Shown: positions 10,209 to 45,688 of the stretch, piece after piece
Numbering within the stretch: the first letter of the stretch is position 1
How the letters are laid out: every line of letters begins with the position of its first letter
Source of the DNA: Malachius bipustulatus
Taxonomy: Eukaryota > Arthropoda > Insecta > Coleoptera > Melyridae
Length of the DNA: 64,000 nucleotides
Assembly: GCA_910589415.1 (NCBI GenBank)
Contig: OU342631.1
Span: 60,912,598-60,976,597 of the forward strand
Direction of reading: 5' to 3'
The notes under the pieces: model-generated
Seen by the model: the letters and a program-made list of their open reading frames with translations, nothing else
Database searches by the model: none
Told to the model about the DNA's origin: nothing
Translations under genes and position numbers: made by a program

Positions 10209-10319
10209 CGACCAGTAGAAAGGGCGCCACCTGGGTCCGTCGGATTTCCCTAGATCTAGGGAAAAATGGCAGTCTAGGGAAATTTTAGCTGAACTGACCT
10301 GGCCTCATGCAGAGCCGAC

Positions 10320-10370
10320 GGGACCTAACCGGACCACATGCAGAGCCGGCAGGGTCTGACCCGGCCTCTC
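10320..10370. repeat. 51-bp segment present only in the left arm
   Basis: The left arm reads AGAGCCGAC, then 51 bases containing ATGCAGAGCCGGCAGGGTC, then GATAGCAATAAATC. The right arm joins AGAGCCGAC directly to GATAGC (inverted, near 39740). Because the extra piece partly repeats the neighbouring CATGCAGAGCCG module, deletion by slippage in the right arm or duplication in the left are both possible. Confidence 0.8.
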
Positions 10371-13300
10371 GATAGCAATAAATCTGTCAATTTAATAGCT
10401 TATTTATGTAAATTAGGGTCATTAATCATATATGGAAACACAATAGCCTAATGAGTTCTATTGTTATCAAGGTCATTAATCACGCCCACCTGTCACTCCT
10501 TTGTTCGGCGGCCCTTTGTCGGCGTTCCTTTGTGTGAAATACAATAGAATTAATTATGTTGTTATTTATAACCCTCACGTGTCACTGAATATAAATTGTA
10601 TAATTAAAAAAAAACCTAATCCCTTAATGTCATCTTAATTGTTATTTATTATACCTATTATGACCCCACGGAGATAGCGGCGACACCTTTGAGGTGCACA
10701 CGTGCACCATTAATCATATCCGGAATGCAACAAACCTATCAAGTTAATTGTTATTTATGTACATACCTGCATCAGAAACAGATAAGATCTCAGAGTGTTC
10801 AACGGAAACACAAGCTTCGACATGTCTTAAAACAGCGCACCTGCACCCGGTCCTTTGTTCGGAAACACAATAGACTAATGAGTTCTTAGAAATCGGGGGT
10901 CATTAATCACGCCCGCTTGGCACTCCTTTGTTCGGCGGCCCTTTGTCGGCGTTTCCTTGTCTGGAACACAATAAAGCTGCCGGTCTTTGCTATGCGAACA
11001 CAAAAAGAGAAGTCAAGTTAATACATCCGATTCGACAAGCTTCGACACGTCTGAAAGGGACCACCAACATTGAAAACCGTTATTATGTTAATCCATAGGT
11101 CAGTCGCACACACCAGCATCGAAAACCGGTAATCACTACGAAGACCTACCTGCATACCTACCAACCCACCTACCCAACTACTACCTGCACCGAAAACCGG
11201 TTTTATATGACTCACCACGGAGACAACAACCATCGACACGTCTGAAATTGAATTATATGAAGAGTTGGGGCCGAGGTCCACTACATGAAGAACCAATTAG
11301 AATAAAGATAATCGAGGGGTGGGGGTAGAATATAGGGTGTATGATGTAGGGGAGGGGGTAACTACACAACTTGATGCACCAATCAGAATAAAGATAATCG
11401 AGGGGTGGGGGTAGAATATCGGGTGTATGAGGTAGGGGAGGGGGAGGGCCGCGGGGGTGCAAGCCATGACAAGTATCGACGCGTCTGAAAGCCGGCCACC
11501 GACGATGAAAACCGGTCTTAATATCTGAAAAAACCAGCCTACCAATGGGAGACGCACCTCTATGACAAGTCGAAGAATGAAAACATGGTTGTGCGATTCT
11601 AAACCGTCTTATAAAAATCAATAAATAATAATGTAAAATGTGAGACAGAAAATAGATACATAACTCCCCTTACAGAACATGGCAGTAAGTGTAATAAGAC
11701 ACGAATTATAAAAGACCCTACACATGTACCTTAAGGTATACACATCCAAGATAACCGTCTTGTAGTGTTAAGACTAACAGCGGTACATCTAGCTAAGCAA
11801 GTCCGAACACGACAGATCTATTACACCAGCTATAATTAACGACCCTGACTGAAGACCCAGATGGTAGTGGCAGCCAGCCTGTATATCGTTCGGGAGCAAT
11901 AGTACGACATCTTCATTATTATTATTATTATTATTATTAATAGTATTATTCGGTACATCAGCGCAATAACTTATAAATTAAGTACCTAAATAATTATAAG
12001 TAGGTACCTCTACCTATATCATGATTATAAACAGGTAAGTACCGTATTAATAGCGTACAGCTGTAAGTAGGTATACAATCCCCATAACCTATATAATGCA
12101 TACTCAAAAGGGTCCAGATATTATGAATCATCCTTTATATTAACGACCCTGACTGAAGCCCAGACGGTAGTGGCGGCCAGCCTGTATATCGGTCGGGAGC
12201 AATAGTACGCCATCTTCATTATTATTATTATTAGTCGATTCATTCTCAGCATTCTCAGTATCACATCATTATTGTTATTAATATTATCTTTATTAATAGT
12301 ATTATTCGGTACATCAGCGCAATAACTTTTAAATTAAGTACCTAAATAATTATAAGTAGGTACCTATACCTATAATCATGATTATAAATAGGTAAGTACA
12401 AGTATGATAGTATTAATAGCGTACAGCTGTAAGTAGGTATACAATTCCCATAACCTATATAATGCATACTCAAAAGGGCGCAGATATTATGAATCATCCT
12501 GTATTAAGTATTCTACAGGGATATCAATGCAGTCTTAAGTACTGATTACACCCACGAGAGTAGCTAGCACAGGGTGTGACTCTATCAGCGTTTCCAGACA
12601 CCCAAGACCTCAGAGACGGATCTCGACAGCTCCGTAGAGTTGGGTTAAAACTGCATGATATAAAATGTCGCTAAAATACCCAAGCAGACGGGGAGCTCAT
12701 GGAATACACCCCAGAAGACATGGAACGAGTCTGATCGCAATAACCAAGTATCCTTCAGAGGGATCCAGAGCTAAAACCGCCAAAGGACTTGCACTTTGTG
12801 TTCAGAAGAGACATGCTGTACAGTATGCTTATATATCAGCTCCTTAAACAACATATTATGACAGCAGCGAGACTATAGGGATATTAAAAACCATATATTA
12901 GTATTATTTCATGGTTACATAAAAGGTATGTGATAGGGGGGCCCTAGTTCATAGGTCATAGACGCTCCGTAGATAATATACCTATACCTATATATATTTA
13001 TATACCTATAATATATACCTATACCTATTACCATGAATTAAGACAGAAATTCATAAATAAATAGCACTTCTTTTTAAAAATTATACATAACCGCTAATCG
13101 GCGACACCACGTACCTACCCTGTTTTGTTACGGGAATACAATAGAGGAGTCAAGTTATTCCTTCGTAATCGACAAACAACGGACGGACGACCACCAACGT
13201 CGAAAACCGTTATTATGTTAATCCATAGATCCGTCGCACCCACCAGCATCGAAAACCGGTATTCACTACGAAGATCTACCTGCATACCTATCCACACACC

Positions 13301-13635
13301 TACCCAACTACTACCTGCACCGAAAACCGGTTTTTATATGACTCACCACGGAGACGACAAGTTTCGACACGTCTAAATTGAATCATATGCAGAGTGGTGG
13401 CCGATATCCACTACTTGATGCGCCCATTAACATAAACATAATAGAGGGGATGGGGAGGGAATCGGGTGTTTGATGTAAGGGATATGTAACAGGTAGGGGA
13501 GGGGGTCGCCTAAGTACACCGCTATGCAGCGGGTTACCATATAGTCTTCTGACTGAGTGTGCGAATTTAGTTCCTTCCGGCTGAAGACAGTGTTGTTATA
13601 CAGGTTGGTGTACCCTTACAAGACGCTGAATCATC

Positions 13636-14103
13636 ATGTCATTGTATCGTACAAATCTGCTATCCGAGGCCATGCCGGAGTCGCAGCGAGAAAGAAGTAT
13701 GCAGGAAATCGACGCTAAGTGTCTCCTTAATGCAAGCACAATCCCCGTAAATGATAGCGCGTGCAAGTTGATAACTTTGGGTCTTAATCCATGCACGAAT
13801 TTATGGACGGTGATTAAATTACACAGTGCGAAGTCTCCAAATGCCTGCGTAGTGATGGACACCGAGGGTTTCTACGCATTGATGCAGATGCTACCAAAGT
13901 CAATCACCGAGTGCGAAATCGCCAACATAGAGAACCGCCGCAGTTATAATCTAGAACAATACGTCATAAATCACAGACAAGACACCAATATACAGCTGAT
14001 ACCCAGGTTTCAAGCAAAGTACGGATATAATATATACCTGGGGGTTGCAACTCTTAAAAGACTGAAATCTCTAGAAAACTACATCCAAAGATGTGATCAA
14101 TAG
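13636..14103 (+). CDS. Unidentified 155-aa protein of the giant palindrome, left copy
   Basis: The frame runs ATG to TAG, opening MSLYRTNLLSEAM and ending LENYIQRCDQ. The protein is soluble, with no signal peptide or membrane segment. Two similar blocks stand out: about residues 45-85 (LITLGLNP...VVMDTEGFYALMQML) and residues 120-150 (LIPRF...IYLGVATLKRLKSL). Each is a beta-rich stretch ending in an amphipathic helix. This weakly recalls single-strand-binding PC4/Whirly-like folds, but that is an impression only. I do not recognise the family. It is the longest frame of the arm, differs from its mirror copy by one residue (Asn/Tyr at about 35), and escaped every insertion. A coding role in replication, packaging or mobility of the element is possible but unproven. 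Confidence 0.55.
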   Translation: MSLYRTNLLSEAMPESQRERSMQEIDAKCLLNASTIPVNDSACKLITLGLNPCTNLWTVIKLHSAKSPNACVVMDTEGFYALMQMLPKSITECEIANIENRRSYNLEQYVINHRQDTNIQLIPRFQAKYGYNIYLGVATLKRLKSLENYIQRCDQ

Positions 14104-16571
14104 TTTGGAAAAGGACGACAGACGTATCAATACAGATGCCTGTTTATGAACAATGGCTGAAGAGGCAGCAATAACAGCCATAGAGATAGGTGAAGCAGGG
14201 ACTGGGGCCTAGATTTATGGATACCTTCAAAATTATAATAACTAGCTTCACCCCTGATAGGGACTCATGGCGAAACATGCAGTAAGTATACGCTGACATT
14301 ATACCGAGAATTGTGCCAAGAGAAAGGGGATAGTTACCATCAACAATAAGGATAATTAGTGCTTGGTACGTCCACTGGTGGTTGCCATGGCATACCTTCA
14401 GAACGTTCCATATCTGAACCAGGTGAGGCGAAATATAGGAAAGAGACAGGACGAGGAAGTAAAGAAATTAATATTAACAGTTTCTCAATTTAATATTTCT
14501 ATAGCCTGCATAGTAGCAATGTTATTATCTTGGTCAACATCATTGTGGACAGAGTGGTACCACCTGGGCAATAGTCTACGCCGGTCCAAATTAGGTATTG
14601 GTAGTGAAAAATCTGGGGTGAGGAATGATGCACATCGCTAGGTATGTCGAACTGAGCGATTACTGGTAACAGCCGTTAGTATAGCAGAAACTCGAAGTAT
14701 TCCGAGAGTAGGTAGTTGAAACTCGATGTCTTCGACGCGTATGATACCGACCATCAACGGCGAAAACCGGTCTTAATGATTCATCACGCCGTCGACAACC
14801 CTCGATACGTCTGAAAAACCCCGCTTATCATGAGAAACGCACCTACGGCTGGTCGAAGAATGAAAACATCGCTGTACGATTCTTAGCTTTAAAGACCGTC
14901 TTATAAAAATTAAGAAATAATGTAAAATGTGAGACAGAAAATAGATACATACTTCCTTTCAGAACATGGCAGCAAGTGTGATAAAACACGTTGTTTAAAA
15001 GACTCTACACATGTACCTAAAGGTATACGCATCCAAGATAACCGTCTTGTAGTGTAAGACTGACAGAGGGACATCCAGCGAGGCAATTCCAAACATGACA
15101 GGTCTCTTACACCCGCCATAATAATTAACGATCCCCCGACTGAAGGCCCAGACGATAGCGGCGGACACCCTGTATATCGTTCACCAGGTACTTTGTCTGG
15201 AATACAATAGAGCTCCACACCTGCATCCGTTCCTTTGTTCGGCGGTCCTTTGTCTGGAATACAATAGGGTTAATTAAGCAGAGGCACGTCGACTTGTCGG
15301 CAGCCGCACACCTGCATCCTATTGCATAGCTGCTCAGCTCGGACCAAGTCAAATCTGCTTGTTATCAAGTCTCGGATATCGCGGGTCAACGCTTGTTCAT
15401 CTCCCATCGCATCTGACCATTGCCTCGCAGCTGGGCTCTCATCGAGTCTGACTGTAGCGTCGCGCATCGGACTGATCAACGTCTGATCGTCTCTTATCGG
15501 ATCTGGCTGACGGTGCGGACCTGATCAGGGTATCCGGGCTTTGTTCTGCCCCACATACTTATCGATTTTGGTTGACTATCACATCTCGGATCTGACGGAG
15601 TAACCGTATGCTCTATGGCTTGGTCATGTACGTAGGACGAGGGTAGGTAGCGGAAACGTGGTAGCTGAAACTCGATGTATGGTATGGACTGGTAGCTGAA
15701 ACATAAGTATAGATAAAATGACAGTTATAAAATTCTGTAAGATAACAATTATTAAGACTGTGTGATTAGGTGGTAGTTGGCCAAAAACGACAACACGGCA
15801 CTCAATAAGTGTGCAGGTTTATACCCATATTATCAAGATGCTAACAGGGAAACGTTCGATTAATACCCTCAGTAACTTGAACAACGTTGCCACATTGACA
15901 AAACCGGTGGGCGATGACGGGTTAACTGCTGGTCATATCCTATCGGATCCGGCCTACGGCGTCGAGTCGACCACTGTATCGCTGCTCAGCTCTGACCAAG
16001 TCAAATCTGGTTGTTATCAAATTTCAGAGTTCGCTGGTACACGGTTGTTCACCCCCAATCGGATCTGTCAGGCGGTGCAGGTTTGACCAATGCCTCGCGT
16101 CTGACCAAGTCTCATCGAATTTTGCTGGTTGGTACGTCTCGGATAGGGCGGGTTAACGTCTCTTATCGGAACTGGCTGACGGCGCGGACCTGATCAATGC
16201 ATAGTGGCGATGCTCTGATCAGGTCCTATCGATTTTGGTTGGCTAACACGTCTCGAATCTAACGGGACAACGTCTGGTACAGAGCCGGCAGGTCCGGTCA
16301 GTTCGGCTATCATTTCCCTAGACTGCCATTTTTGCCTAGAATCTACGGCTATCCATCAGCATACCTGCTCCGAGTCCTTAAGGAACCGGTTATCGATGTT
16401 AATCAATGATGCATGTGGGTATCTCAACTATCTAATTAACATAAATAACAATTAACTTGACAGGTTCATTGCATACCACTCATGATTACTGACCCTAATT
16501 TGCATAAATAACCAATTAACTTGAAAGATTTATTGCTATCATGAGGCCGGGTCAGAGCCTGTCGGCTCTGC

Positions 16572-16919
16572 ATGAGCCCCGGTCAGCTCGAATAAAACAC
16601 CACAGAGCCCCGGTCAGCTCGATTAAATATTACAGAGCCCCGGTCAGCTCGAATAAAACACCACAGAGCCCCGGTCAGCTCGATTAAATATTACAGAGCC
16701 CCGGTCAGCTCGGATAAAATATTACAACATACAAGTCAACATGGAAACTAAAAGATTATCGATTTGTAATATTTTATCCGAGCTGACCGGGGCTCTGTAA
16801 TATTTAATCGAGCTGACCGGGGCTCTGTGGTGTTTTATTCGAGCTGACCGGGGCTCTGTAATATTTAATCGAGCTGACCGGGGCTCTGTGGTGTTTTATT
16901 CGAGCTGACCGGGGCTCAT
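16572..16919. repeat. Central 30/31-bp tandem repeats around the palindrome centre
   Basis: Five tandem units per arm begin GAGCCCCGGTCAGCTCG. They alternate between a tail AATAAAACACCACA (31 bp) and ATTAAATATTACA (30 bp). The right arm mirrors them. Ten GC-rich copies thus crowd the centre on both sides of the spacer. Their position suggests a structural or origin-like role, which is inference. Confidence 0.85.
16728..16763. other. 36-bp unique spacer at palindrome centre
   Basis: This is the only non-paired sequence between the arms (starts CATACAAGTCAACATGG, ends TTATCGAT). It would be the loop of a hairpin or cruciform. It does not resemble a sequencing adapter. Confidence 0.9.
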
Positions 16920-18235
16920 GCAGAGCCGACAGGCTCTGACCCGGCCTCATGATAGCAATAAATCTTTCAAGTTAATTGGTTATTTATGCAAATTAGGGTC
17001 AGTAATCATGAGTGGTATGCAATGAACCTGTCAAGTTAATTGTTATTTATGTTAATTAGATAGTTGAGATACCCACATGCATCATTGATTAACATCGATA
17101 ACCGGTTCCTTAAGGATTCGGAGCAGGTATGCTGATGGATAGCCGTAGATTCTAGGCAAAAATGGCAGTCTAGGGAAATGATAGCCGAACTGACCGGACC
17201 TGCCGGCTCTGTACCAGACGTTGTCCCGTTAGATTCGAGACGTGTTAGCCAACCAAAATCGATAGGACCTGATCAGAGCATCGCCACTATGCATTGATCA
17301 GGTCCGCGCCGTCAGCCAGTTCCGATAAGAGACGTTAACCCGCCCTATCCGAGACGTACCAACCAGCAAAATTCGATGAGACTTGGTCAGACGCGAGGCA
17401 TTGGTCAAACCTGCACCGCCTGACAGATCCGATTGGGGGTGAACAACCGTGTACCAGCGAACTCTGAAATTTGATAACAACCAGATTTGACTTGGTCAGA
17501 GCTGAGCAGCGATACAGTGGTCGACTCGACGCCGTAGGCCGGATCCGATAGGATATGACCAGCAGTTAACCCGTCATCGCCCACCGGTTTTGTCAATGTG
17601 GCAACGTTGTTCAAGTTACTGAGGGTATTAATCGAACGTTTCCCTGTTAGCATCTTGATAATATGGGTATAAACCTGCACACTTATTGAGTGCCGTGTTG
17701 TCGTTTTTGGCCAACTACCACCTAATCACACAGTCTTAATAATTGTTATCTTACAGAATTTTATAACTGTCATTTTATCTATACTTATGTTTCAGCTACC
17801 AGTCCATACCATACATCGAGTTTCAGCTACCACGTTTCCGCTACCTACCCTCGTCCTACGTACATGACCAAGCCATAGAGCATACGGTTACTCCGTCAGA
17901 TCCGAGATGTGATAGTCAACCAAAATCGATAAGTATGTGGGGCAGAACAAAGCCCGGATACCCTGATCAGGTCCGCACCGTCAGCCAGATCCGATAAGAG
18001 ACGATCAGACGTTGATCAGTCCGATGCGCGACGCTACAGTCAGACTCGATGAGAGCCCAGCTGCGAGGCAATGGTCAGATGCGATGGGAGATGAACAAGC
18101 GTTGACCCGCGATATCCGAGACTTGATAACAAGCAGATTTGACTTGGTCCGAGCTGAGCAGCTATGCAATAGGATGCAGGTGTGCGGCTGCCGACAAGTC
18201 GACGTGCCTCTGCTTAATTAACCCTCATCATCATC

Positions 18236-19210
18236 ATGTCGCCGAGTAGTGCAGACGTGCATTTTAGGTGCTCAGTTTGTAAAGTTGATTTTGGTGAAAG
18301 TGAAGGTTATTTGTGTTGTGCTGGCTTGTGTGATTTTAAGAGCCACTTCAAATGTTCTAAAATAAAGACTCACGAAATTAAATCATTAGAAAATGTGAGA
18401 ATAAAGTGGTTTTGTGAAAATTGCAGCTATTCCAGTGCAAGTTTACTGGACATGCTGCTATCTATGAAGAATGCGATTATTGGTATTCAAGATAAACTTA
18501 TTAATATGGATGGCAACTTCGCAAAATTTGGAGGTGCTATTGATCATTTAAACCGAGATGTGGAACAATTAAAAATTATTTCGCAGTTGGATAAAACTAA
18601 AAATTCATCGTGTACGAGTATACCTGTAGTCGATAAACGCCACGCAGATAAGGCGCCGATAATAAACGGCTTTGAAACCAAAACAGAAGCAAAAAATAAT
18701 AATGTCAACATTCCAGCAACTAATACTAGTGATGGGAAAGGCAAAGGTAATGATGGTAAAATAACATATTCTCAGGTTGCATCGGCTGTGAAATTCGCCA
18801 CAAACAACTCTAAATCAGAGCAGTCAAATAAATCTGAGGAAAGTAACTGGACAAATGTTAAAAATTTTAAAAATAAAAGAACCAAAAAGGCAACTAACAA
18901 TGTAACGGTTATTGGAAACACAAAAATAAACAATAATAATTTAAAAGGGGTTCCAAGAAAAGGTCATATTCATGTATATAGACTTCAACCCAACACTACT
19001 GTCGAAGATTTAATGAATTTTCTGAAACCCAACTATCCCGAAGCAGAATGTGAGAATCTTAAATCAAAACATCCAGAAAGTTACTCTTCTTTCAGAGTTT
19101 CAGTTGATTATGACAACCTCACTAAAATAATGGATCCAAATGCATGGCCCAGTGGAGTTCATGTGAATAGGTTTTTTCACATACGTCCCAAAACAGTAAC
19201 GCCAGCTTAA
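18236..19210 (+). CDS. CR1 LINE ORF1 (PHD-finger RNA-binding protein)
   Basis: 324 aa. Residues about 12-65 form a PHD/zinc-finger Cys-His array (CSVCKVDFG, CCAGLCDF, HFKC, WFCENC), the usual ORF1 start of insect CR1 elements. Residues about 75-115 are hydrophobic-heptad-like (possible coiled coil). A long Lys/Asn/Ser-rich basic linker follows (about 130-240). The C-terminal 80 residues (HIHVYRLQPNTTVEDLMNF onward) form a conserved alpha/beta domain of this protein class. The product probably coats LINE RNA and chaperones target-primed reverse transcription. The stop codon overlaps the ORF2 start (TAATG), which suggests coupled reinitiation. Confidence 0.9.
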   Translation: MSPSSADVHFRCSVCKVDFGESEGYLCCAGLCDFKSHFKCSKIKTHEIKSLENVRIKWFCENCSYSSASLLDMLLSMKNAIIGIQDKLINMDGNFAKFGGAIDHLNRDVEQLKIISQLDKTKNSSCTSIPVVDKRHADKAPIINGFETKTEAKNNNVNIPATNTSDGKGKGNDGKITYSQVASAVKFATNNSKSEQSNKSEESNWTNVKNFKNKRTKKATNNVTVIGNTKINNNNLKGVPRKGHIHVYRLQPNTTVEDLMNFLKPNYPEAECENLKSKHPESYSSFRVSVDYDNLTKIMDPNAWPSGVHVNRFFHIRPKTVTPA

Positions 19211-22068: not shown

Positions 22069-22202
22069 TGTATACTTCTAGTTATTAGCCGGGTAATACG
22101 CTCGGTGAAATCTTTGGATGTTTTTTGTTGTTGATTTTAGACTATTTTTAAATTGCATTGACGTTGTGTAAGACTCTTATAAAGTTAAAACACTGAAATA
22201 TA

Positions 22203-22229
22203 TATATTACTGATTACTGATTACTGATT
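22203..22229 (+). repeat. TTACTGA tandem 3' tail of CR1 LINE
   Basis: Three to four direct TTACTGA heptamers end the LINE immediately before the target duplication. CR1-type LINEs end in such short repeats and use them for 3' recognition (known for the clade). Confidence 0.85.
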
Positions 22230-25590: not shown

Positions 25591-25597
25591 TTAGAAA

Positions 25598-27931: not shown

Positions 27932-28089
27932 TATTAAAAAACCTTCTTGCGCATCAATCGCAGAAATAGTGTATTTTTATGCGATTCAATAATAAATATT
28001 TTCTTCCTATTTTTTTTTTATAATGAATATAATGAAAAAATAATCCGATTTTTTGGGGCGGAAAAGCGGAAAACCACCTACCTACCAAA

Positions 28090-28184
28090 AAAAAAGAATA
28101 ACCCTCTCGTGGTTTCGAACCCGCATCAACAGTTTACTATTTAGGCAAGGGTTCGCTTGCCTAACCAACTGAGTTAAAGGTGCC
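28090..28184 (-). ncRNA. tRNA-like pol III unit (SINE head or tRNA pseudogene)
   Basis: On the minus strand, TAACTCAGTTGG (28176-28165) matches an A box and GGGTTCGAAACC (28122-28111) matches a B box, 42 bp apart. A T9 run at about 28095-28087 follows, a pol III terminator. Between the boxes is a perfect 9-bp stem, TTAGGCAAG/CTTGCCTAA (28141-28164). The 5' GGCACCT has no complementary 3' acceptor strand and the T-stem is poorly paired, so this is not a functional tRNA. A tRNA-derived SINE head is the most likely reading. Confidence 0.65.
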
Positions 28185-28559
28185 TTTCAAATATGTAGCG
28201 ATGATCGAGTAGGTATATGTAGTACGTCCAATACTTCATCCTACACATTTTATTTTTTAAACTGGTCGTATCTTTGTTATTAAAAAACCAATTTGAATAC
28301 TTTTTTCACCTGCATGTAGGTGATTTAATTGTTGTTGCGTTTGCTCTTCTAATTTTCAGAACCATTCATAATTGAATGTGGAAAAAAATAAAAAAGAAAT
28401 TGCGAACCATTTCATCGATTTAATAAGTGCAAGCTAATTTTGCACAAGCGAAAAACTTTTTTGTTTTTCGTTTAAAGTGCTACATTAATCGAGGCGAATT
28501 GAAGCTAAGACATCAAATTATATGTTAAAGCAAAAAAAAATTGAAAATTTCGGTTCAAC

Positions 28560-29075
28560 TTCTTCAAAAATGGACTCATAAACGGTTATAGAATTGACAC
28601 ATTTTCACCCTTTTTCCTACCCACGACACTGGCTTATTAATGGAAAATATGCTAATTTTATTGCATTAACTCAAATTTCCAATAATTTTCTTCAAATCCT
28701 GTTAATTTTATTTCAAAGTTTTTTTGCCATCTTGCTCATACAGGGATTCAAAAATAGTCAATTTTCCAAAAAATTAAAATAGCCGCCATTTTGAAACGGC
28801 TCGGCCGATTTTGCTCAAGTGCAATACCAGACCACTCCTTGTGGATATCTTACTCCCACAAAAATTTCAGCCTCCTAGATTCAAAACTGCGACCTGAAAT
28901 GAGATGACAAAAACCGGATACCTGGAATTTTGAAGGGACACCCTGTAGAAGTGATGGGACTTTTGGAAAGTTTTTCAACGAAAATCCAACGTCATTCCCA
29001 AATTTTACAAGGACCCAAAATTTCGTTCACTAATCTTAAAAGATAAAGCCACAGGAGCGTTTTTAAAATCGAAAT
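28560..29075. repeat. Dispersed repeat, permuted relative to 60.9-61.7 kb
   Basis: Block A (about 28595-28915, containing CTTGCTCATACAGGG and GCCGCCATTTTGAAACGGC) and block B (about 28970-29065, containing AATCTTAAAAGATAAAG and CAGGAGCGTTTT) both recur near the window's right end, but there B precedes A. Both are non-coding. Confidence 0.8.
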
Positions 29076-29093
29076 TTCGCGATTTTGGAGAAA

Positions 29094-29174
29094 TATATAT
29101 ATATATAAATATATATATAAATATATATATAAATATATATATAAATATATATATAAATATATATATATATATAT
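29094..29174. repeat. AT microsatellite with regular AA interruptions
   Basis: ATATATATATAA-type units repeat about five times with a 16-bp period, followed by pure AT. This is low-complexity DNA; the tyrosine/isoleucine ORFs over it are spurious. Confidence 0.95.
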
Positions 29175-29307
29175 CGTGGGCAGGTGAATTTTGGAAAACC
29201 ACTTTTTCGTAATCTGGGGGTCATGATCGGTGGACATTTGATGAGTTTGGGTGATTTTTGGAAAGTGATGTCGTCCTCAATAGTGTATTTTTTTGTTAAA
29301 AAATACA

Positions 29308-31023
29308 CTAAAATGGCTTTGAAAAGTCTGGACTAGCCAGAATAGGAGCACTAGTGAGGAGAACTTTAATTTTTTGAAACGCCTGTTCAGCCTCGGAGGT
29401 CCAAACCACCGGCTGACCTTTTTTCTTACCCTTCAGAAGATCGTTAATGGGGGAAGAAACAGATGCAAAATCTTTGAGGAAGCGACGATAGTATCCGATC
29501 ATACCGATAAGTCTACGAATCTGAGTGGTATTCGTAGGGCTGGGATAATTAACAAGAGCAGAGATTTTCTCAGGATCTGTTCTCAGGCCTTTGTCGTCAA
29601 CGACAAAGCCTAGAAAATTCAAAGATGGTCGACAAAAGAAACATTGTTTGAAGTTCACTGTCAGATTAGCATTCTTGAGTCTCTCACGGACATCACGCAA
29701 TACACGGAGATGAGTTGAAAAATCTCCCGTGGCAATGATGATATCATCAAGGTAATAAAAAACATAGGGCTCCAGTTCAGGACCCAAAACACCGTCCAGG
29801 AGTCGGCACATAGCACTAGAACTATTATTCAGGCCGAAAGGAAGACGTTTATAACAAAAAAGGCCTTTGCCACGAACGGCGAAGGCGGTCTTAAGTTTGG
29901 ACTCATCGTCAAGAGGAATCTGAAGAAAGGCAGATTTAAGATCTATTGAAGAGAGATATTTAGAGTCTCGGATCTTCATCAAGATGGAGTCAATTAACGG
30001 TGGAGGATAAGAATCGGGGACCGTGACAGAATTTAACTTCCGCCCATCAAAACAAACACGGTATGACTCATCCTTCTTTTTGACAAGCCATAGGGGACTG
30101 CACCAGGGAGAAGAACATTTTTCAATAATTCCTAACTTGAGCATCTCATCGACCTGCTCGTCGAGAGCCTGCTGCATGGCATGAGACAAAGGATACTGTC
30201 TCTGCCTGATGGGGGTTGCATCACCGGTGTCGATGTGATGTGTATACAAATGGGTACACCCTATCCTATCCTCAGGACCTATCTCCTTAAACAGGTCAAC
30301 GACCTGGTTAAGTTGCATAACTTCACTCTCGTCTAACCTTTCCAATCCCTGAATGGCGTTAATAGCGCAGGAGGACATTATGGATTGATATTTAAAATTG
30401 GGAAAATCTACTTTTAATTTAAATTTAAGAATAAAATCCATTCCCAGAACTAATTTATGGGCAATGGTGGGAACAACTAAAACCTTAAACTCCTGATGAC
30501 AATCCTCGAAAATTAAAGGGAGCATAACATACCCCAAGGTGTCCTGCACTTGGCCATCTGCTGTGGTCAAATTTAACATGATGTCATAAGAAAGGGTTAA
30601 ATTAAGTTTTCTTAAAAGGTACAAACCTGCAGATCCTATTATGGTGACATTACTACCACTGTCTAATAAAGCAGAAACATTCTCGCCAGCGACACAGATG
30701 TTAAGATATGGACGATTGTCGCTGTCGAGCTGTAAGAGAAGGGGCTCAACTGCCACTTTGGGCGCAACGCTTGATTGAACGGAAGGTGAAACCTGAGCTA
30801 AGGGAGTTGGTGTGTGGACAAACCTTTTAATGCGCTGGAGCCAGTGAAGCCAGTCTCCAGAATCCCTACGATAAATTATTTGGGGCCGTTTTTTGGAGGT
30901 TGTCCTGGTGCGGACTTTCCTTTGCTCGTTCCAGCCTGACTTTGGCCTTGGGAGGTTCCAGGAGCTGGAGCTGTTGTGGACCTGGCCTCCGGCCGATTGG
31001 CGTTTTTTGAGCACGATGGGCAT
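29308..31023 (-). CDS. pol: Gypsy pol, 5' part: protease and reverse transcriptase
   Basis: 571-codon open frame whose first ~43 codons overlap gag in another frame; the natural entry is the -1 frameshift at 30888-30894. Protease: ALLDSGSNVTIIG with the active-site Asp at residue 121 (DSG). RT: SSIDLKSAF (Asp361), LPFGLNN, and YLDD at 424-427, followed by the thumb and NFLGFVVDDKGLR. The frame ends at KPF, exactly where the insertion begins and brings a TAG. The protein would mature Gag and copy the genomic RNA. Catalytic residues are intact; only the insertion inactivates the element. Confidence 0.93.
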   Translation of the reverse strand: MPIVLKKRQSAGGQVHNSSSSWNLPRPKSGWNEQRKVRTRTTSKKRPQIIYRRDSGDWLHWLQRIKRFVHTPTPLAQVSPSVQSSVAPKVAVEPLLLQLDSDNRPYLNICVAGENVSALLDSGSNVTIIGSAGLYLLRKLNLTLSYDIMLNLTTADGQVQDTLGYVMLPLIFEDCHQEFKVLVVPTIAHKLVLGMDFILKFKLKVDFPNFKYQSIMSSCAINAIQGLERLDESEVMQLNQVVDLFKEIGPEDRIGCTHLYTHHIDTGDATPIRQRQYPLSHAMQQALDEQVDEMLKLGIIEKCSSPWCSPLWLVKKKDESYRVCFDGRKLNSVTVPDSYPPPLIDSILMKIRDSKYLSSIDLKSAFLQIPLDDESKLKTAFAVRGKGLFCYKRLPFGLNNSSSAMCRLLDGVLGPELEPYVFYYLDDIIIATGDFSTHLRVLRDVRERLKNANLTVNFKQCFFCRPSLNFLGFVVDDKGLRTDPEKISALVNYPSPTNTTQIRRLIGMIGYYRRFLKDFASVSSPINDLLKGKKKGQPVVWTSEAEQAFQKIKVLLTSAPILASPDFSKPF

Positions 31024-32324
31024 CGTGGTTTAACCACACCCTCTCGTCCACATCCGTAACAATACGGAGATGGTCGGGAGCGACACTGACGAGAAGTGTG
31101 ACCTTCTCGGTTACAGTTCTGGCAGACAACAGGGGCAGTGGTAGCACTGACATTAACATTTCGGAACGATTGGGTGACTTGGTATGAGTCCTCCAATCGT
31201 CGACAGGCACTTGCCAATTGTTCGAATGAAAAAAAATCATGTAGGGCCAATGACCTTACATAATGGGGTAGTAGGTTTCTACGTACGATATTCACCTGCT
31301 CCTTCTCTGAGAGAGAAGAGTTGAGCAGACGATGGAGCTCTGCCTGCATGAGGAAGAGAAAGTTTGTGACAGATTCTCCCCTGCCCTGCTTACGCCTCCT
31401 GATCTCGTCCAGTAAGTTCTGGTCGTGATCGGTGCGCATGAAAGCTCCTTTGAGCTGATAGACCAGATCATCCCAGTCATAAAAATTGTTGGCACGGTGA
31501 CCATTGTACCACCATGTCCACGCCACACCTTCAAAAAGATCACCTGCAGCAGCAAAGAGATCTGCTTCGTTGCAACCACGAGATGGCATCAACGATTCCA
31601 CCTTTTCGAGGAACTCCATAAGAGAGCCCTCACCTGAAAATTTTTTAATGCCCCATTTAAATACGGGGACCTTTTTTGCATGCTCAGCGTTCTGGGTTGA
31701 CCAGGATGTATTCTGAGCATGGGAAACCGGTGGAGATGGTTGCTGTGACGTGATAGGTGCATTGATGGATTGCACCACAGAAGTGACTGGGAATGACGGT
31801 GGCTGCAAAGTGGATGATGCCAGGGTGTTCGGCATAAAAGACACGGTCGCTGTTGTTCGCGGTGGAGAAGGGAGAGTCGGTGAGGCCGACGATGGATCTG
31901 GGGGCAGTTGAATCCTGTCCAACAGATCCGACTCTAGGATGATTAGAGCAACCTTTAGAGCCTCAAGTTTCTTACGTTCTTCCTCGGTGTTGGCAGTTAT
32001 TCGGCGAAGACGACCACTCATGTGTGACAGCCGTGAATTAACACGACGCTGTTCGGTGGAGCCGAGAGATACTGAAGAGGTGTTAACCAACTCTCTCACC
32101 TTGGTGATGGAGGCGAGCAATGCAGCTTCATCCTCATCAAAAGTAAAAGGGGATTGAGACGCTTGGGGATCAGAAAAACTACGGTCATTTGCCTCCTGGG
32201 CAAATAAACCCCGCAGATATCTACGCTTTTCCTCAACAGTGGCGGGCACCGTGAGACCCCGTATTAATATTTCATAACTAAGCTCCTCCGAAAGCAAATC
32301 TACCACATTGATTTTGTGAGACAT
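30876..32324 (-). CDS. gag: Gypsy gag: capsid and nucleocapsid
   Basis: About 482 aa, starting at the Met of MSHKINVVDLL; the 23 upstream codons in the same frame lie in the leader and are less likely used. A helical matrix-like N-terminus is followed by a Ser/Pro-rich linker and a Ty3/Arc-type capsid region (from about W-G-I-K-K-F-S-G, including AWTWWYNGH and RRKQGRGESV). The zinc knuckle CQNCNREGHTSRQC has a perfect CX2CX4HX4C pattern. A second, CYGCGREGVVKPRC, has lost its His. It packages element RNA into virus-like particles. The last codons contain the slippery site that leads into pol. Confidence 0.9.
   Translation of the reverse strand: MSHKINVVDLLSEELSYEILIRGLTVPATVEEKRRYLRGLFAQEANDRSFSDPQASQSPFTFDEDEAALLASITKVRELVNTSSVSLGSTEQRRVNSRLSHMSGRLRRITANTEEERKKLEALKVALIILESDLLDRIQLPPDPSSASPTLPSPPRTTATVSFMPNTLASSTLQPPSFPVTSVVQSINAPITSQQPSPPVSHAQNTSWSTQNAEHAKKVPVFKWGIKKFSGEGSLMEFLEKVESLMPSRGCNEADLFAAAGDLFEGVAWTWWYNGHRANNFYDWDDLVYQLKGAFMRTDHDQNLLDEIRRRKQGRGESVTNFLFLMQAELHRLLNSSLSEKEQVNIVRRNLLPHYVRSLALHDFFSFEQLASACRRLEDSYQVTQSFRNVNVSATTAPVVCQNCNREGHTSRQCRSRPSPYCYGCGREGVVKPRCPSCSKNANRPEARSTTAPAPGTSQGQSQAGTSKGKSAPGQPPKNGPK
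30888..30894 (-). promoter_or_regulatory. -1 ribosomal frameshift site A AAA AAC (gag to pol)
   Basis: On the minus strand, in gag phase, the codons CCA AAA AAC contain the heptamer A AAA AAC (X XXY YYZ), one of the strongest known -1 slippery sequences. It lies 3 codons before the gag stop (30876-30878), inside the gag/pol overlap. Gag and pol frames differ by exactly -1. A downstream pseudoknot was not demonstrated. Confidence 0.85.
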
Positions 32325-32393
32325 GATGTTAAAGGTTGGTATGTACGTAACGTAGAATTCCAAAGTTAAAATAAAAAAGAGAAAAAGATACAA

Positions 32394-34226
32394 GGGAGTT
32401 CAAATAGTACCTACTAATAAGGACCCCTACCTACAATGTTGAAAACTAATTGGCAATCAAAGAAAAATTTTTAATGTTTTTATTAACGTTAATATCAAAA
32501 GTTAGCACCTGAGGGATGGAGAACTACTATAACCCCACACTAATAATCAGTAATAGATAACGATAAAAAAATTAAATAATTAATCGGCAATAGTAATTAT
32601 TGAATTAATCAAATACCTGCAGAGCAGCAACAAAAGAGAAAAGCACACAGTATGGGTGATTGGTTCAAAGATGTAACTTTTAATTTTTTAATATATTTAA
32701 AAAAAAAGAAAACAGCAATAATAATAATGAAAGATCTTAAATGCTAAATTACTGTTCCTTAACGGCGAGCAGCAGAAATTGTTACGCTCAGCAACTCAGT
32801 CACCCAACTCAGCAAGGCTGTGCCGACCAGGCTCCGTCCACAGGTACGGTGGATTTTCCTGTGTAAAAAAAAATTAATTAGTGTGGGTAAAGGCAAGTTG
32901 CAAGACCAAGATGACCAATTAGACTACCAGTGACACCAATAATCGAAAATAGATGGAGAAAATTTTTAAAGATAATAGTAATAAGAAATAATTTATAAAG
33001 ATAATGTAACAAAATCTAATTAAAGAGCAATAATATAATATACAAAAATGTAACAAAAGCCACAATAATTGGGGCACACTCACACACACTCTCAATCAAA
33101 ATGACATAAACTTTCCTCTTGCGAGGAGAAAATGATTCCTGTTAAAAATAATTATGAAAGTGAGCAATATGTACTCATCCACACATAATAAGAATTCAAA
33201 TCAATACTCTATATAGAAAAGATTCAAAAAGTAGTGAAGACTCAATCTCACAGACTTGAAAATAAATAATTTAAAATTTAAATATTCATAAATAATTTCG
33301 CCCACTCAGACGAGAAGACTCGCCCCCTTCATGGAGGATGGTAAGGCCTTGCAAAGTAACATTATTGCGGGTGCAATGAGTGAAGGTAGAGTTATGTAAT
33401 AAAAAAATAAAGTTGATAAGTCCCAGGTCAAAAAAAAACTCATCATCCCAGATGAATAAAAAAAAACAATTAAATAAATACTCCTAAGTTAACTAACTAT
33501 AAATAAATGAAAAGAAACAAATTTGATCTTTGATAGGTGTATAATAAAATAATTCTAAAAAGTAACAACACCAAAATATTTCAAAGTCAAATTGTTTTAA
33601 TAATAATCATGAATTATTATTTATCATGAATAAATGCAGAAATTTTAAATAATTTCACAATAAAATAACTTAAAGGAGTCGAAATAATTTTCCAGGATAA
33701 AGAATCAAATTTTGCGGACCTGATATGGAGCTTATCACTCATAAAAAAAACTACTACCTTCCTTGAAACTGATAACAGGCCAATTCTGCACGATTAAAAA
33801 TTAAATTTTTAAAATGTTAAAATGCAATTAAATATTTATTACACCCACAATAATTATTATAAATTTCATGAAAAATTTGAAAAATTTCAATAAAATAAAA
33901 TTTGGACACATCAAAGAACCGAAACAAACCACAGCAATACCATTTCCCTCACTAAAAATCATGCCTGCTATTTTCATGAAAAGATTAAAATGTTATTGAA
34001 AAGATTAATGAAAAAAAATGGAAAATTTTACTAGAAAATTGGAAAAATGAAAACTGAAACCACCTGGATACCATCTGTTATTGCGATACTGTAAAATTGC
34101 TTTTACCGAACTCTTCAACCTGATCTGCCGCTCAAGTGTAGCAATGCCAAACAAAAAAAATTACAAAAGATTTAAATAGAGCAATTATCATGACTTTGAA
34201 AGTCTCAGGGTCTTCAAATTACGAGG
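32394..34226 (-). other. Long non-coding leader of the gypsy element
   Basis: About 1.8 kb between primer site and gag, AT-rich and A-rich on the plus strand. No coding frame was found; it probably contains the packaging signal and 5' UTR. A candidate TGATATGG...TACCATCTG region near 33720-34075 shows nothing distinctive. Confidence 0.6.
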
Positions 34227-34244
34227 GCCCCGCGTTGGGCGCCA
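34227..34244 (-). promoter_or_regulatory. tRNA-Lys primer binding site
   Basis: The plus strand reads GCCCCGCGTTGGGCGCCA, ending in CCA like a mature tRNA 3' end. It differs at one base from the insect tRNA-Lys 3' sequence used by gypsy-type elements (established knowledge). It lies 3 bp inside the 5' LTR, as required for minus-strand priming. Confidence 0.85.
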
Positions 34245-34247
34245 ATT

Positions 34248-35750
34248 TATAACCTTCCGTTCCACCCCGAGCAATTTTCGGGGAGGTTAGGAATGCTATT
34301 TAGCAGCCAGCTAGCTCAAAATGAAAAAATTCACTGTTGTTATGGCAATGCACACAAATGAACAACGTCACAGGCAGAAGGAAATTCACAAGCAAATTTT
34401 AACAGTTTTTATTAAAGTAAGTAATAAATATAAATAGATAGTAAAATGTAATAAATATATCAAATATCACAAAATAGAAAAATACAATTATTGGTGAATT
34501 ACAGATGATCACAGGTAGGTATACAGTTAACAATAAAATATCAAATGAAATATCAAATCACAGAAATTATGCAATGATTATAATAATGAAATAGGTATTA
34601 ATTAAATGAGAAGGATTAAACGGCAAAGCACAAAAAAAATTATATTGAAACCCACACGATGACGTGTGGGGGCGATATTAATAATAGAAAAAATTGCTTT
34701 ATTGAATAAGATTAAAAATTACAAACTGCGGAAATTATGACATAATGAGGCACTAGAGCCCTGGAGGTGAAATTAAAAAGCAATTATTTGAAAAGTGAGA
34801 ATAGCAACCAGGCTAAGTTATACCAGGTGAAGAATTGAACCACTTATCTTTGTAAAGCAGGTGGTGTAGGTGCCTGCTTCAAAAGTGTTCCACACGACTC
34901 CCCGAGGACGTGCCATGGATGGTGGAAATGCTGGTGGTAGTGCTGGTCGTGCCGTGGGAGTGCTCCTGGTGCTGGTGCTGGTGCTGGTACTGGTACCGCT
35001 GCTAGCTAGCCGGTCATGATAAGCCTGTCATCGGTCCTGACGGTCTTGTGGGCGTAGAAAGGCATCCATTAAAAAAGGGGGCGAACTCCCTACAGCAGAT
35101 CAGAAGATTTCAGACTCAGCATAATAATGATCGGCGCGAATCCTCGAGAGTAATGAGAACGTGTTGAACTTAAATAGTTCAACCCTTCACATGATAAAAA
35201 TTGAGGTTAATAAAAAGTAACCTCCAAAACTCTCGAGAACTCACCGTCAATAATAAAATATAAAGCAATATAAAATAATAGCAACCACGATAATATTAAA
35301 AGTAATAAATGATTGGAAATTAATTTAGAGAAATGAAATGAGATCGGCGATCTTGACTCGCCACTCAACCTTCACATGGTATTATAAAATAAAAGCAGTA
35401 TTACGGAGAATGCTCCACACTTACCTACTGAGTGGGTGAGGGGCTGCTTTCTAGCTGCGAGACATTATGTTTAGGTGGTTGTTTAAAGAGAGTTTTTAAC
35501 AGGAATCAATCATCCATGACTGTGTTGCATCCTATATTAATTATTCCCCTCCCTGCAGGTATTACGAATTGCAGCGAGGCGCGACTCGGGAAGTACGAAC
35601 GGTAGTGTCGCCCTCGCTCGGTGTTAACGCAACCTATTAAGGCAACATACCTACAGTGCGCTCTCGAAATATCTAGTCCTACCTACAGGGAAAATGAATA
35701 AATTTTATTTATTTAAAAATGAATGCAACGGTGTCAAAAGAACCGTTACA
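34248..35750 (-). repeat. 5' LTR of the gypsy element
   Basis: 1,503 bp, offset 11,105 from the other LTR along its whole length. It carries promoter and polyadenylation functions on the minus strand. The apparent identity of the two LTRs implies a very recent insertion. Confidence 0.95.
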
Positions 35751-36008
35751 CACTAATTATCCTTATTGTTGATGGTAACTATCCCCTTTCTCTTGGCACA
35801 ATTCTCGGTATAATGTCAGCGTATACTTACTGCATGTTTCGCCATGAGTCCCTATCACGGGTGAAGCTAGTTATTATAATTTTGAAGGTATCCATAAATC
35901 TAGGCCCCAGTCCCTGCTTCACCTATCTCTATGGCTGTTATTGCTGCCTCTTCAGCCATTGTTCATAAACAGGCATCTGTATTGATACGTCTGTCGTCCT
36001 TTTCCAAA

Positions 36009-36476
36009 CTATTGATCACATCTTTGGATGTAGTTTTCTAGAGATTTCAGTCTTTTAAGAGTTGCAACCCCCAGGTATATATTATATCCGTACTTTGCTT
36101 GAAACCTGGGTATCAGCTGTATATTGGTGTCTTGTCTGTGATTTATGACGTATTGTTCTAGATTATAACTGCGGCGGTTCTCTATGTTGGCGATTTCGCA
36201 CTCGGTGATTGACTTTGGTAGCATCTGCATCAATGCGTAGAAACCCTCGGTGTCCATCACTACGCAGGCATTTGGAGACTTCGCACTGTGTAATTTAATC
36301 ACCGTCCATAAATTCGTGCATGGATTAAGACCCAAAGTTATCAACTTGCACGCGCTATCATTTACGGGGATTGTGCTTGCATATAGGAGACACTTAGCGT
36401 CGATTTCCTGCATACTTCTTTCTCGCTGCGACTCCGGCATGGCCTCGGATAGCAGATTTGTACGATACAATGACAT
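36009..36476 (-). CDS. Unidentified 155-aa protein of the giant palindrome, right copy
   Basis: This is the mirror of the frame at 13636-14103 (coordinates sum to 50112). It is open over its full length and differs only by Tyr for Asn at about residue 35, caused by a two-base TA/AT change. Convergent pointing toward the palindrome centre holds for both copies. The function is unknown; see the left copy for what can be seen in the protein. Survival of an open frame in both arms is compatible with selection but also with very recent duplication, so it is not proof of function. Confidence 0.55.
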   Translation of the reverse strand: MSLYRTNLLSEAMPESQRERSMQEIDAKCLLYASTIPVNDSACKLITLGLNPCTNLWTVIKLHSAKSPNACVVMDTEGFYALMQMLPKSITECEIANIENRRSYNLEQYVINHRQDTNIQLIPRFQAKYGYNIYLGVATLKRLKSLENYIQRCDQ

Positions 36477-39400
36477 GATGATTCAGCGTCTTGTAAGGGT
36501 ACACCAACCTGTATAACAACACTGTCTTCAGCCGGAAGGAACTAAATTCGCACACTCAGTCAGAAGACTATATGGTAACCCGCTGCATAGCGGTGTACTT
36601 AGGCGACCCCCTCCCCTACCTGTTACATATCCCTTACATCAAACACCCGATTCCCTCCCCATCCCCTCTATTATGTTTATGTTAATGGGCGCATCAAGTA
36701 GTGGATATCGGCCACCACTCTGCATATGATTCAATTTAGACGTGTCGAAACTTGTCGTCTCCGTGGTGAGTCATATAAAAACCGGTTTTCGGTGCAGGTA
36801 GTAGTTGGGTAGGTGTGTGGATAGGTATGCAGGTAGATCTTCGTAGTGAATACCGGTTTTCGATGCTGGTGGGTGCGACGGATCTATGGATTAACATAAT
36901 AACGGTTTTCGACGTTGGTGGTCGTCCGTCCGTTGTTTGTCGATTACGAAGGAATAACTTGACTCCTCTATTGTATTCCCGTAACAAAACAGGGTAGGTA
37001 CGTGGTGTCGCCGATTAGCGGTTATGTATAATTTTTAAAAAGAAGTGCTATTTATTTATGAATTTCTGTCTTAATTCATGGTAATAGGTATAGGTATATA
37101 TTATAGGTATATAAATATATATAGGTATAGGTATATTATCTACGGAGCGTCTATGACCTATGAACTAGGGCCCCCCTATCACATACCTTTTATGTAACCA
37201 TGAAATAATACTAATATATGGTTTTTAATATCCCTATAGTCTCGCTGCTGTCATAATATGTTGTTTAAGGAGCTGATATATAAGCATACTGTACAGCATG
37301 TCTCTTCTGAACACAAAGTGCAAGTCCTTTGGCGGTTTTAGCTCTGGATCCCTCTGAAGGATACTTGGTTATTGCGATCAGACTCGTTCCATGTCTTCTG
37401 GGGTGTATTCCATGAGCTCCCCGTCTGCTTGGGTATTTTAGCGACATTTTATATCATGCAGTTTTAACCCAACTCTACGGAGCTGTCGAGATCCGTCTCT
37501 GAGGTCTTGGGTGTCTGGAAACGCTGATAGAGTCACACCCTGTGCTAGCTACTCTCGTGGGTGTAATCAGTACTTAAGACTGCATTGATATCCCTGTAGA
37601 ATACTTAATACAGGATGATTCATAATATCTGCGCCCTTTTGAGTATGCATTATATAGGTTATGGGAATTGTATACCTACTTACAGCTGTACGCTATTAAT
37701 ACTATCATACTTGTACTTACCTATTTATAATCATGATTATAGGTATAGGTACCTACTTATAATTATTTAGGTACTTAATTTAAAAGTTATTGCGCTGATG
37801 TACCGAATAATACTATTAATAAAGATAATATTAATAACAATAATGATGTGATACTGAGAATGCTGAGAATGAATCGACTAATAATAATAATAATGAAGAT
37901 GGCGTACTATTGCTCCCGACCGATATACAGGCTGGCCGCCACTACCGTCTGGGCTTCAGTCAGGGTCGTTAATATAAAGGATGATTCATAATATCTGGAC
38001 CCTTTTGAGTATGCATTATATAGGTTATGGGGATTGTATACCTACTTACAGCTGTACGCTATTAATACGGTACTTACCTGTTTATAATCATGATATAGGT
38101 AGAGGTACCTACTTATAATTATTTAGGTACTGAATTTATAAGTTATTGCGCTGATGTACCGAATAATACTATTAATAATAATAATAATAATAATAATGAA
38201 GATGTCGTACTATTGCTCCCGAACGATATACAGGCTGGCTGCCACTACCATCTGGGTCTTCAGTCAGGGTCGTTAATTATAGCTGGTGTAATAGATCTGT
38301 CGTGTTCGGACTTGCTTAGCTAGATGTACCGCTGTTAGTCTTAACACTACAAGACGGTTATCTTGGATGTGTATACCTTAAGGTACATGTGTAGGGTCTT
38401 TTATAATTCGTGTCTTATTACACTTACTGCCATGTTCTGTAAGGGGAGTTATGTATCTATTTTCTGTCTCACATTTTACATTATTATTTATTGATTTTTA
38501 TAAGACGGTTTAGAATCGCACAACCATGTTTTCATTCTTCGACTTGTCATAGAGGTGCGTCTCCCATTGGTAGGCTGGTTTTTTCAGATATTAAGACCGG
38601 TTTTCATCGTCGGTGGCCGGCTTTCAGACGCGTCGATACTTGTCATGGCTTGCACCCCCGCGGCCCTCCCCCTCCCCTACCTCATACACCCGATATTCTA
38701 CCCCCACCCCTCGATTATCTTTATTCTGATTGGTGCATCAAGTTGTGTAGTTACCCCCTCCCCTACATCATACACCCTATATTCTACCCCCACCCCTCGA
38801 TTATCTTTATTCTAATTGGTTCTTCATGTAGTGGACCTCGGCCCCAACTCTTCATATAATTCAATTTCAGACGTGTCGATGGTTGTTGTCTCCGTGGTGA
38901 GTCATATAAAACCGGTTTTCGGTGCAGGTAGTAGTTGGGTAGGTGGGTTGGTAGGTATGCAGGTAGGTCTTCGTAGTGATTACCGGTTTTCGATGCTGGT
39001 GTGTGCGACTGACCTATGGATTAACATAATAACGGTTTTCAATGTTGGTGGTCCCTTTCAGACGTGTCGAAGCTTGTCGAATCGGATGTATTAACTTGAC
39101 TTCTCTTTTTGTGTTCGCATAGCAAAGACCGGCAGCTTTATTGTGTTCCAGACAAGGAAACGCCGACAAAGGGCCGCCGAACAAAGGAGTGCCAAGCGGG
39201 CGTGATTAATGACCCCCGATTTCTAAGAACTCATTAGTCTATTGTGTTTCCGAACAAAGGACCGGGTGCAGGTGCGCTGTTTTAAGACATGTCGAAGCTT
39301 GTGTTTCCGTTGAACACTCTGAGATCTTATCTGTTTCTGATGCAGGTATGTACATAAATAACAATTAACTTGATAGGTTTGTTGCATTCCGGATATGATT

Positions 39401-39852
39401 AATGGTGCACGTGTGCACCTCAAAGGTGTCGCCGCTATCTCCGTGGGGTCATAATAGGTATAATAAATAACAATTAAGATGACATTAAGGGATTAGGTTT
39501 TTTTTTAATTATACAATTTATATTCAGTGACACGTGAGGGTTATAAATAACAACATAATTAATTCTATTGTATTTCACACAAAGGAACGCCGACAAAGGG
39601 CCGCCGAACAAAGGAGTGAGAGGTGGGCGTGATTAATGACCTTGATAACAATAGAACTCATTAGGCTATTGTGTTTCCGTATATGATTAATGACCCTAAT
39701 TTACATAAATAAGCTTTTAAATTGACAGATTTATTGCTATCGTCGGCTCTGCATGAGGCCAGGTCAGTTCAGCTAAAATTTCCCTAGACTGCCATTTTTC
39801 CCTAGATCTAGGGAAATCCGACGGACCCAGGTGGCGCCCTTTCTACTGCGAC

Positions 39853-45617: not shown

Positions 45618-45688
45618 GGTACCTATTTCATAATACTTTACGATACATCTGTGCCTACTTATTATGTTTTTTATTAATACATGAAAAT

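Follow-up and report, generated by a model that had tools for sequence, protein, structure and literature searches.

The element described here, a near-perfect palindrome in a 64,000-nucleotide stretch of the genome of the beetle Malachius bipustulatus (the window, G000:C2:60912598-60976597, in which C-numbers denote contigs), shares features with several known systems and differs from each of them. In left-end palindromic defective genomes of adenovirus, one end of a linear DNA with protein-primed replication is dimerized by fold-back (passages of two packaging reviews are silent on palindromes), whereas the palindromes reported here form a chromosomal multicopy family whose polymerase is under selection. 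Polinton/Maverick elements of the vertebrate set are alike in their 6-bp target-site duplications, AGT-type ends (most often (AGT)2), viral/organellar-type DNA polymerase (PolB), and total length of ~13 kb, but have terminal repeats of 46-1447 bp (PMC8097293), as against about 6 kb here; moreover, no frame for an integrase, ATPase, protease, or capsid was seen in the palindromes that we read, and their PolB is mirrored in duplicate.

Foldback elements (Tetris; Galileo and FB) are alike in having very long inverted repeats, subrepeats, and non-autonomous copies, but Tetris has an 8-10 bp rather than a 6-bp duplication, arms of up to 1,735 bp where those here are longer, and no PolB lineage (PMC4079207). 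Bidnaviridae also have a Polinton-type PolB (here a likeness by Pfam family only), units near 6.5 kb, and genes split over two molecules, but consist of separate single-stranded segments and not of palindromic dimers integrated with 6-bp duplications, in which no capsid or helicase frame was seen. The ends given for Ginger and IS3EU (TGTNR or TA..TA, with a 4-bp or 6-bp duplication) differ from the AGTAG ends of the palindromes. Among the papers listed by searches of an open library (subscription papers lay outside this scope), none described a palindromic Maverick in its title or abstract opening.

We conclude that the window element is probably a non-autonomous copy of a palindromic, integrase-less branch of the Polinton/Maverick lineage, which would be copied as a hairpin and integrated in trans. 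The branch comprises a family of AGTAG...CTACT elements with 6-bp duplications; the copies read are almost perfectly palindromic over about 11-13.5 kb, with one arm damaged in some. Some carry PolB in each arm, and others, the window copy included, carry in each arm a shorter gene, H, together with scraps of PolB.

Termini and Target-Site Duplications

The window element begins with AGTAG at 10214 and ends with CTACT at 39847, directly flanked by the 6-bp duplication GCGACC (10208–10213 and 39848–39853). An earlier note, made from the letters of this DNA, had given the ends as CAGTAG/CTACTG with CGAC flanks; the additional C/G belongs to the duplication, AGTAG with 6-bp GCGACC being chosen over CAGTAG with 4-bp CGAC because the other copies decide the matter. 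Among ten palindromes whose ends were fetched, a 6-bp duplication lies directly outside AGTAG in nine and beyond one additional AGT in the tenth; in seven additional copies, known from their ends only, it is direct in five and lies beyond one additional ACT in two. With the window and one conventional PolB element (duplication AAGGGG), 19/19 insertions have 6-bp duplications, those of the three cases with an additional AGT/ACT unit having been read by eye in the printed flanks. AGTAG ends and 6-bp duplications are Polinton/Maverick end features. The three-base steps at the tips would fit slide-back in protein-primed replication.

The length of the duplication bears on whether the element could be a cut-and-paste transposon of foldback type (such as Mutator/FB or P/Galileo), mobilized by an unknown transposase and with terminal repeats expanded to 6.5 kb. 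Such transposons, Tetris for instance (PMC4079207), typically contain tandem repeats inside long terminal repeats, and the window element has both long inverted repeats and internal subrepeats. However, 6 bp in every insertion read contrasts with the 8-10 bp of Tetris, and the AGT ends and PolB indicate Mavericks. Because of the duplication length and PolB, the foldback explanation is largely refuted and retains only a slight chance of being correct; the new foldback superfamily suggested in the earlier note gives way, on the same grounds and on the ends, to the Polinton/Maverick lineage.

Copies across the Genome

In the 544-Mb assembly (52 contigs), the search for further copies with the same ends that the earlier note had proposed yielded 74 exact matches to a 22-base tip pattern and none to its reversed control. 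Inward-facing pairs account for 58 of the 74 tips (29 pairs); the other 16 are without a partner, and single-arm copies, which the earlier note had asked for, may exist among them. The pairs span 9–15.1 kb in 23 cases, more in three (the window among them), and <4 kb in three; these last, with tips 447, 1009, and 3205 bp apart at C14:13302121-13302567, C3:4683632-4684640, and C17:96127-99331, are possible miniature elements. A search with the terminal 588 bp of the arm gave 349 candidate places, 40 of which were scored; leaving the window aside, matches over the full length showed 95-97% identity.

Ten copies, each retrieved in two pieces, measure 10.9-13.5 kb, and all are palindromes, some with one arm damaged or shifted. 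In the copies read, the arms are about 5.8-6.8 kb long apart from the damaged 4.2-kb arm of C7a, from which about 2.4 kb is absent; one arm of C3b is about 1.25 kb longer than the other, and C4a has a shift of about 0.26 kb. Arm identity in the main blocks is 99.3-99.95% within copies, the asymmetric center being counted in for some. These copies have the same ends and target duplications of their own, which supports the proposal that the palindrome moves in its entirety. The PolB palindrome at C10:84949-98396 sits in repeated DNA that we take to resemble the 28S R2-target region.

The Palindrome in the Window

Computed pairing of blocks (10370-14361 with 35751-39742, 14355-15270 with 22230-23145, 15266-16727 with 16764-18225, and 10213-10320 with 39741-39848) demonstrates that the mirror arms are real. 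The left arm (10214–16727, forward strand, 6514 bp) starts with AGTAGAAAGGGCGCC and is separated by an asymmetric 36-bp center (16728–16763) from the right arm on the reverse strand, the whole span of which (16764–39847) includes two nested insertions that divide it into an inner (16764–18225), a middle (22230–23142), and an outer piece (35751–39847, with terminus CTACT). Both insertions came later: a non-LTR (long terminal repeat) retrotransposon (18226–22229, forward strand) with a PHD-like ORF1, an endonuclease, and a reverse transcriptase is bounded by the 5-bp duplication ACCCT, and a Ty3/gypsy-type LTR retrotransposon (23143–35750, reverse strand), with terminal repeats of 1507 bp that are 100% alike and the 4-bp duplication CACT, interrupts the PolB fragment of the right arm. 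The right arm is thus the left arm plus two retrotransposons, and the left arm keeps both sites uninserted.

The arms differ by nine substitutions over about 6,463 aligned sites (at 10396, 10433, 10492, 11980, 13728, 13729, 14254, 15234, and 16374) and by a single 51-bp indel, so that the near-perfect palindrome with its 36-bp spacer, as first noticed in the earlier note, is confirmed; a tenth difference, at 14357, was discarded as the border of the LTR insertion. The 51-bp stretch present in the left arm only (10319–10369) was probably deleted from the right arm, because related sequence sits in the inner repeat (16482-16589). Tandem repeats of 30/61 bp (16574–16726, forward strand) adjoin the center.

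Palindromic reads are a known artifact, and a missed hairpin adapter or a collapsed repeat could be envisaged as the source of the symmetry. Such an assembly or sequencing artifact would have to accommodate nine substitutions and a 51-bp indel between the arms, two nested insertions (each with its duplication) in one arm only, distinct flanks with a 6-bp duplication, and copies on many contigs. Because the flanks differ, one arm holds insertions with duplications, and other copies are abundant, we regard an artifact as very unlikely, to the point of being scarcely credible.

PolB-bearing palindromes have an outer end that is ~95% identical to the outer 1.2 kb of the left arm (10214–11444; 94.8% for C10a). 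The arm of the window copy and that of the PolB palindrome correspond at either end; between these matches, the window arm has the H segment and has lost most of PolB. What remains is a PolB fragment (14220–14473, forward strand) that aligns with the C10a PolB frame at about residues 122-142 (71% identity) and 147-204 (84% identity). The statement of the earlier note that no polymerase is present therefore stands for intact genes and fails for fragments. The window copy is a deletion derivative, probably non-autonomous, with PolB scraps and one gene H per arm.

The tip (10214-10240) and its mirror include GCGCCACCT, which we take to be similar to the insect CTCF core motif. Rfam (gathering threshold) and tRNA scans of the window found nothing, and comparison of 10207-14361 with phage and plasmid DNA gave no match; 11 viral contigs that contain the 15-bp tip were judged to be chance matches, with no other likeness to the arm.

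PolB of the Sister Palindromes

PolB of the sister palindromes matches DNA_pol_B_2 (PF03175) with E=7e-40. A genome search with this family (150 rows, the best 76 of 187 candidates being scored) was clustered by script with the rows for H, giving, among the matches listed, 39 H–H inverted pairs, 14 PolB–PolB inverted pairs (to be read as at least 14), and 33 convergent H–PolB pairs. Frames of at least 1118 aa are present in both arms of 12 of the 14 PolB pairs. A further 45 genes are left unpaired, including four at the window and C7:9.05M loci, both beyond the 16-kb limit of the script; counting these two loci, the H–H pairs rise to 41. Several H and PolB matches are clustered within 125 kb at C4:10.33-10.45 Mb.

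A long PolB frame of 1122-1126 aa is present in C1a, C3a, C6b, C7a (one PolB per arm), and C10a, although C3a and C7a have it broken or cut in their left arms. Each of these five palindromes has it followed, within about 9-22 bases and in another phase, by a PolB-like frame of 160-162 aa (missing on its own strand in the C7a left arm), and PolB including the break extends from about 1286 to 5157 from the tip. The shared position of the break and the pyrimidine-rich run that precedes it suggest a short intron; an initial view of the break in C7a as damage was dropped, since the identical break occurs in all five PolB palindromes read.

For the first frames (eight arms, five palindromes), the ratio of nonsynonymous to synonymous divergence (dN/dS) between copies is 0.17-0.30 at dS 0.065-0.12 when the C1a/C6b pair is left out; for that near-identical pair, with few changes, it is 0.26-0.52 where computable. 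Within copies, dS is 0.003 or less. PolB of the palindromes is thus under purifying selection. By its sequence it is also of protein-primed type in the sister palindromes, the window having fragments only; priming itself we infer. A single-sequence search of the PolB piece against PDB gave nothing at E 0.01.

The conventional element that we read (C7:3920228-3932467) has inverted repeats of about 1.8 kb (94-97% identity in the main blocks), between which a 268-aa H frame and a 1172-aa PolB frame (DNA_pol_B_2, E=1.5e-46) converge. One alternative is that each palindrome forms anew out of a conventional PolB element by folding back, a dead end comparable to defective-interfering genomes, and that the palindromes have no lineage of their own. 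The H–H and PolB–PolB palindromes indeed resemble mirror dimers of either half, and the 33 convergent H–PolB neighbors are ordered as in this element, although these pairs rest on gene order because one alone was read as sequence, and some may be chance neighbors. Contrary to repeated fold-back, palindrome PolB is under purifying selection across copies, and the PolB of C7a shares only 41% identity with its counterpart in the conventional element across 1010 columns.

Homogeneity of the Arms and Conservation of the Centers

When the outermost 1250 bp were compared in 11 copies, the two arms of a copy differed at 0-3 sites, as compared with a mean of 3.55% between copies, and in a tree of this region left and right arms are sisters in 9/11 copies, the exceptions being C1a and C6b. 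Ten sites differ between left and right, of which eight are private and two are common to C1a and C6b; over whole arms, these two copies share three left/right differences and have four unshared, with none changed in both arms. Since C1a and C6b share left/right differences yet have different duplications, the palindrome moved as a whole unit. Gene conversion between copies could also create shared left/right sites. In the nearly identical C6a and C13a, compared with alignment-end columns left out, three sites are altered in both arms and four in one arm only. Arms are thus homogenized within copies, but with delay.

The 36-bp spacer of the window is identical in C6a (C6:44.41M) and C13a (C13:38.40M) and has one change in C2a (C2:32.97M). 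A GC-rich center is common to C1a, C4a, C7a, and C10a, with GCCGCTAGCGGC in C1a, C4a, and C10a and one change in C7a; folded with RNA parameters, it forms a hairpin that in C1a is nearly perfect to a four-base loop (98.7% symmetric) and in C4a, C7a, and C10a has more mismatches. C6b has the C1a-like center sequence on one side only. The center finders gave no result for C3b (both finders) or for C2a and C6b (the second). Centers shared between copies imply that the palindromic state is mostly inherited.

These data return to repeated fold-back, with which the near identity of arms within copies agrees. It is, however, at odds with a 36-bp spacer common to the window, C6a, and C13a, with the related hairpin of C1a, C4a, C7a, and C10a, and with the left/right differences that C1a and C6b have in common, and we consider it unlikely. 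Beside its foldback alternative, the earlier note had offered a linear DNA dimerized head to head, with a hairpin end. This dimer fits the centers of several copies; the foldback alternative is not supported.

Gene H

Gene H (13636–14103, forward strand, in the left arm; 36009–36476, reverse strand, in the right) encodes 155 aa, is C-terminally shortened, and is without a recognized domain. The length of the open reading frame is by itself only moderately unusual, an equal or longer ATG frame arising in 7/500 shuffles and a stop-to-stop frame in 33/500. That H is conserved, as the earlier note had it, is borne out by at least 150 matches in the genome at 43-100% identity (best 150 of 190 candidates scored). 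The frame is 239-290 aa long in the single-copy relatives read and 157-234 aa in palindromes (111 aa in C2a). Between families the constraint on H is strong (dN/dS 0.12-0.25, but at dS >1, and with two pairs not computable), as against dN/dS of 0.40-1.0 among palindromes and 0.53-0.77 between palindromes and the conventional element. Positions 13728-13729 within H, TA in the left arm and AT in the right, are the sole adjacent pair of changes between the window arms.

No homologue of the 155-aa H was found among 5.8 billion proteins by a method that requires shared 5-residue words, a result that carries some weight because the database contains insect proteins. Neither viral contigs nor prokaryote genomes yielded a relative, and neither the H profile against PDB nor H members against Pfam gave anything significant; structure prediction for H alone has a mean pLDDT (predicted local distance difference test score) of 36.8.

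Other Frames and a Classical Maverick

Frames of at least 150 aa on both strands of ten copies comprise PolB, H (168 or 231 aa), an antisense 159-aa frame in C3a, and a one-arm 160-aa frame in C4a; C2a has none. No rve integrase was seen among these frames (the C4a frame was unsearched, and shorter or spliced pieces lie outside the scan), nor any capsid, packaging ATPase, or protease (the antisense C3a and the C4a frames being unsearched); Pfam on the longer frames of the window arm likewise gave no capsid, packaging ATPase, or protease. No parvovirus-type capsid or S3 helicase was seen among the frames of this length, the two other than PolB and H being unsearched. Because integrase and capsid frames were sought in the copies read and not found, we regard the palindromes as a variant derived from the Maverick lineage and not as Maverick proper.

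This gene content is relevant to the idea that the palindromes are relics of a bidnavirus-like or adintovirus-like virus, whose split hairpin-ended segments (PolB and H) were endogenized many times. Bidnaviruses have a Polinton-derived PolB and segments of 6.5 and 6 kb, but repeats that form no hairpins (PMC4061559). PolB and H do occur on separate palindromes with common ends. In contrast, the frames found are confined to PolB, H, and the C3a and C4a frames, the 6-bp duplications indicate integrase-type insertion, and a scan of viral contigs by exact 8-residue words revealed no relative; a viral origin of this kind is therefore quite improbable.

A classical Maverick/adintovirus-like element is present at C2:52601852-52623380, with an rve integrase (E=6e-15), a Pox_A32-type ATPase, a phospholipase A2-like domain, a weak protease match, and a retrotransposon frame. 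It has AGTAG ends, terminal repeats of at least 481 bp, and the duplication CACTAT, and is a plausible source of integrase for the palindromes.

A Model for Copying and Integration

We propose that PolB from PolB-bearing sisters, together with a terminal protein, would initiate copying at the AGT ends, the additional AGT unit on some ends fitting a three-base slide-back. The displaced strand may fold back to give a 6.5-kb hairpin, the open end of which would again be an origin, so that the palindrome could be copied without a partner strand. Mismatch repair in the hairpin, or gene conversion, would keep the arms alike, and a classical Maverick that has the same tips could provide the integrase for integration in trans. 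More tentatively, and with rather less confidence than in the placement of the window element, the family may represent a self-complementary genome: a protein-primed lineage lacking integrase and capsid, with PolB mirrored around a conserved hairpin center, in which a 6.7-kb folded hairpin becomes a 13.4-kb palindrome for integration, with hairpin repair, H satellites, and a borrowed Maverick integrase.

Several observations weigh against the proposed branch and its mode of copying. The extrachromosomal form, the terminal protein, and integration in trans are inferred, none being directly observed. The classical Maverick and the palindromes are alike in the AGTAG tip only, with no meaningful longer similarity of their ends, and at only 41% identity the split between palindrome and conventional PolB is old. 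The one-arm differences of C6a/C13a and C1a/C6b imply that homogenization is neither instant nor found in every pair. The center of the window copy is an open 36-base loop, and that of C3a differs again and is AT-rich. Finally, H may not matter for mobility, because it is shortened and weakly constrained in palindromes.

Other Features of the Window

A HARBI1-like (PIF/Harbinger) transposase frame lies at 50800-51834 (forward strand), its named database matches being insects (best 120 of 1,913). Inverted reverse-transcriptase fragments with about 90% identity lie about 11.3 kb apart (42618-43952 and 55242-56604), and a non-LTR retrotransposon region of unusual order (44463-48481) contains duplicated stretches of 260 bp (100%) and 247 bp (99.6%).

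Implications

Perfect palindromes of this size are normally considered unstable. Despite this expected instability, M. bipustulatus harbors a multicopy palindrome family with polymerase genes that are under selection. Because additional AGT units are recorded at insertion sites, the use of ends by protein-primed elements becomes testable. If the proposed reading is correct, the family would add a new kind of genome architecture to the Maverick lineage, with replication that is free of a partner strand and a satellite system that borrows its integrase.

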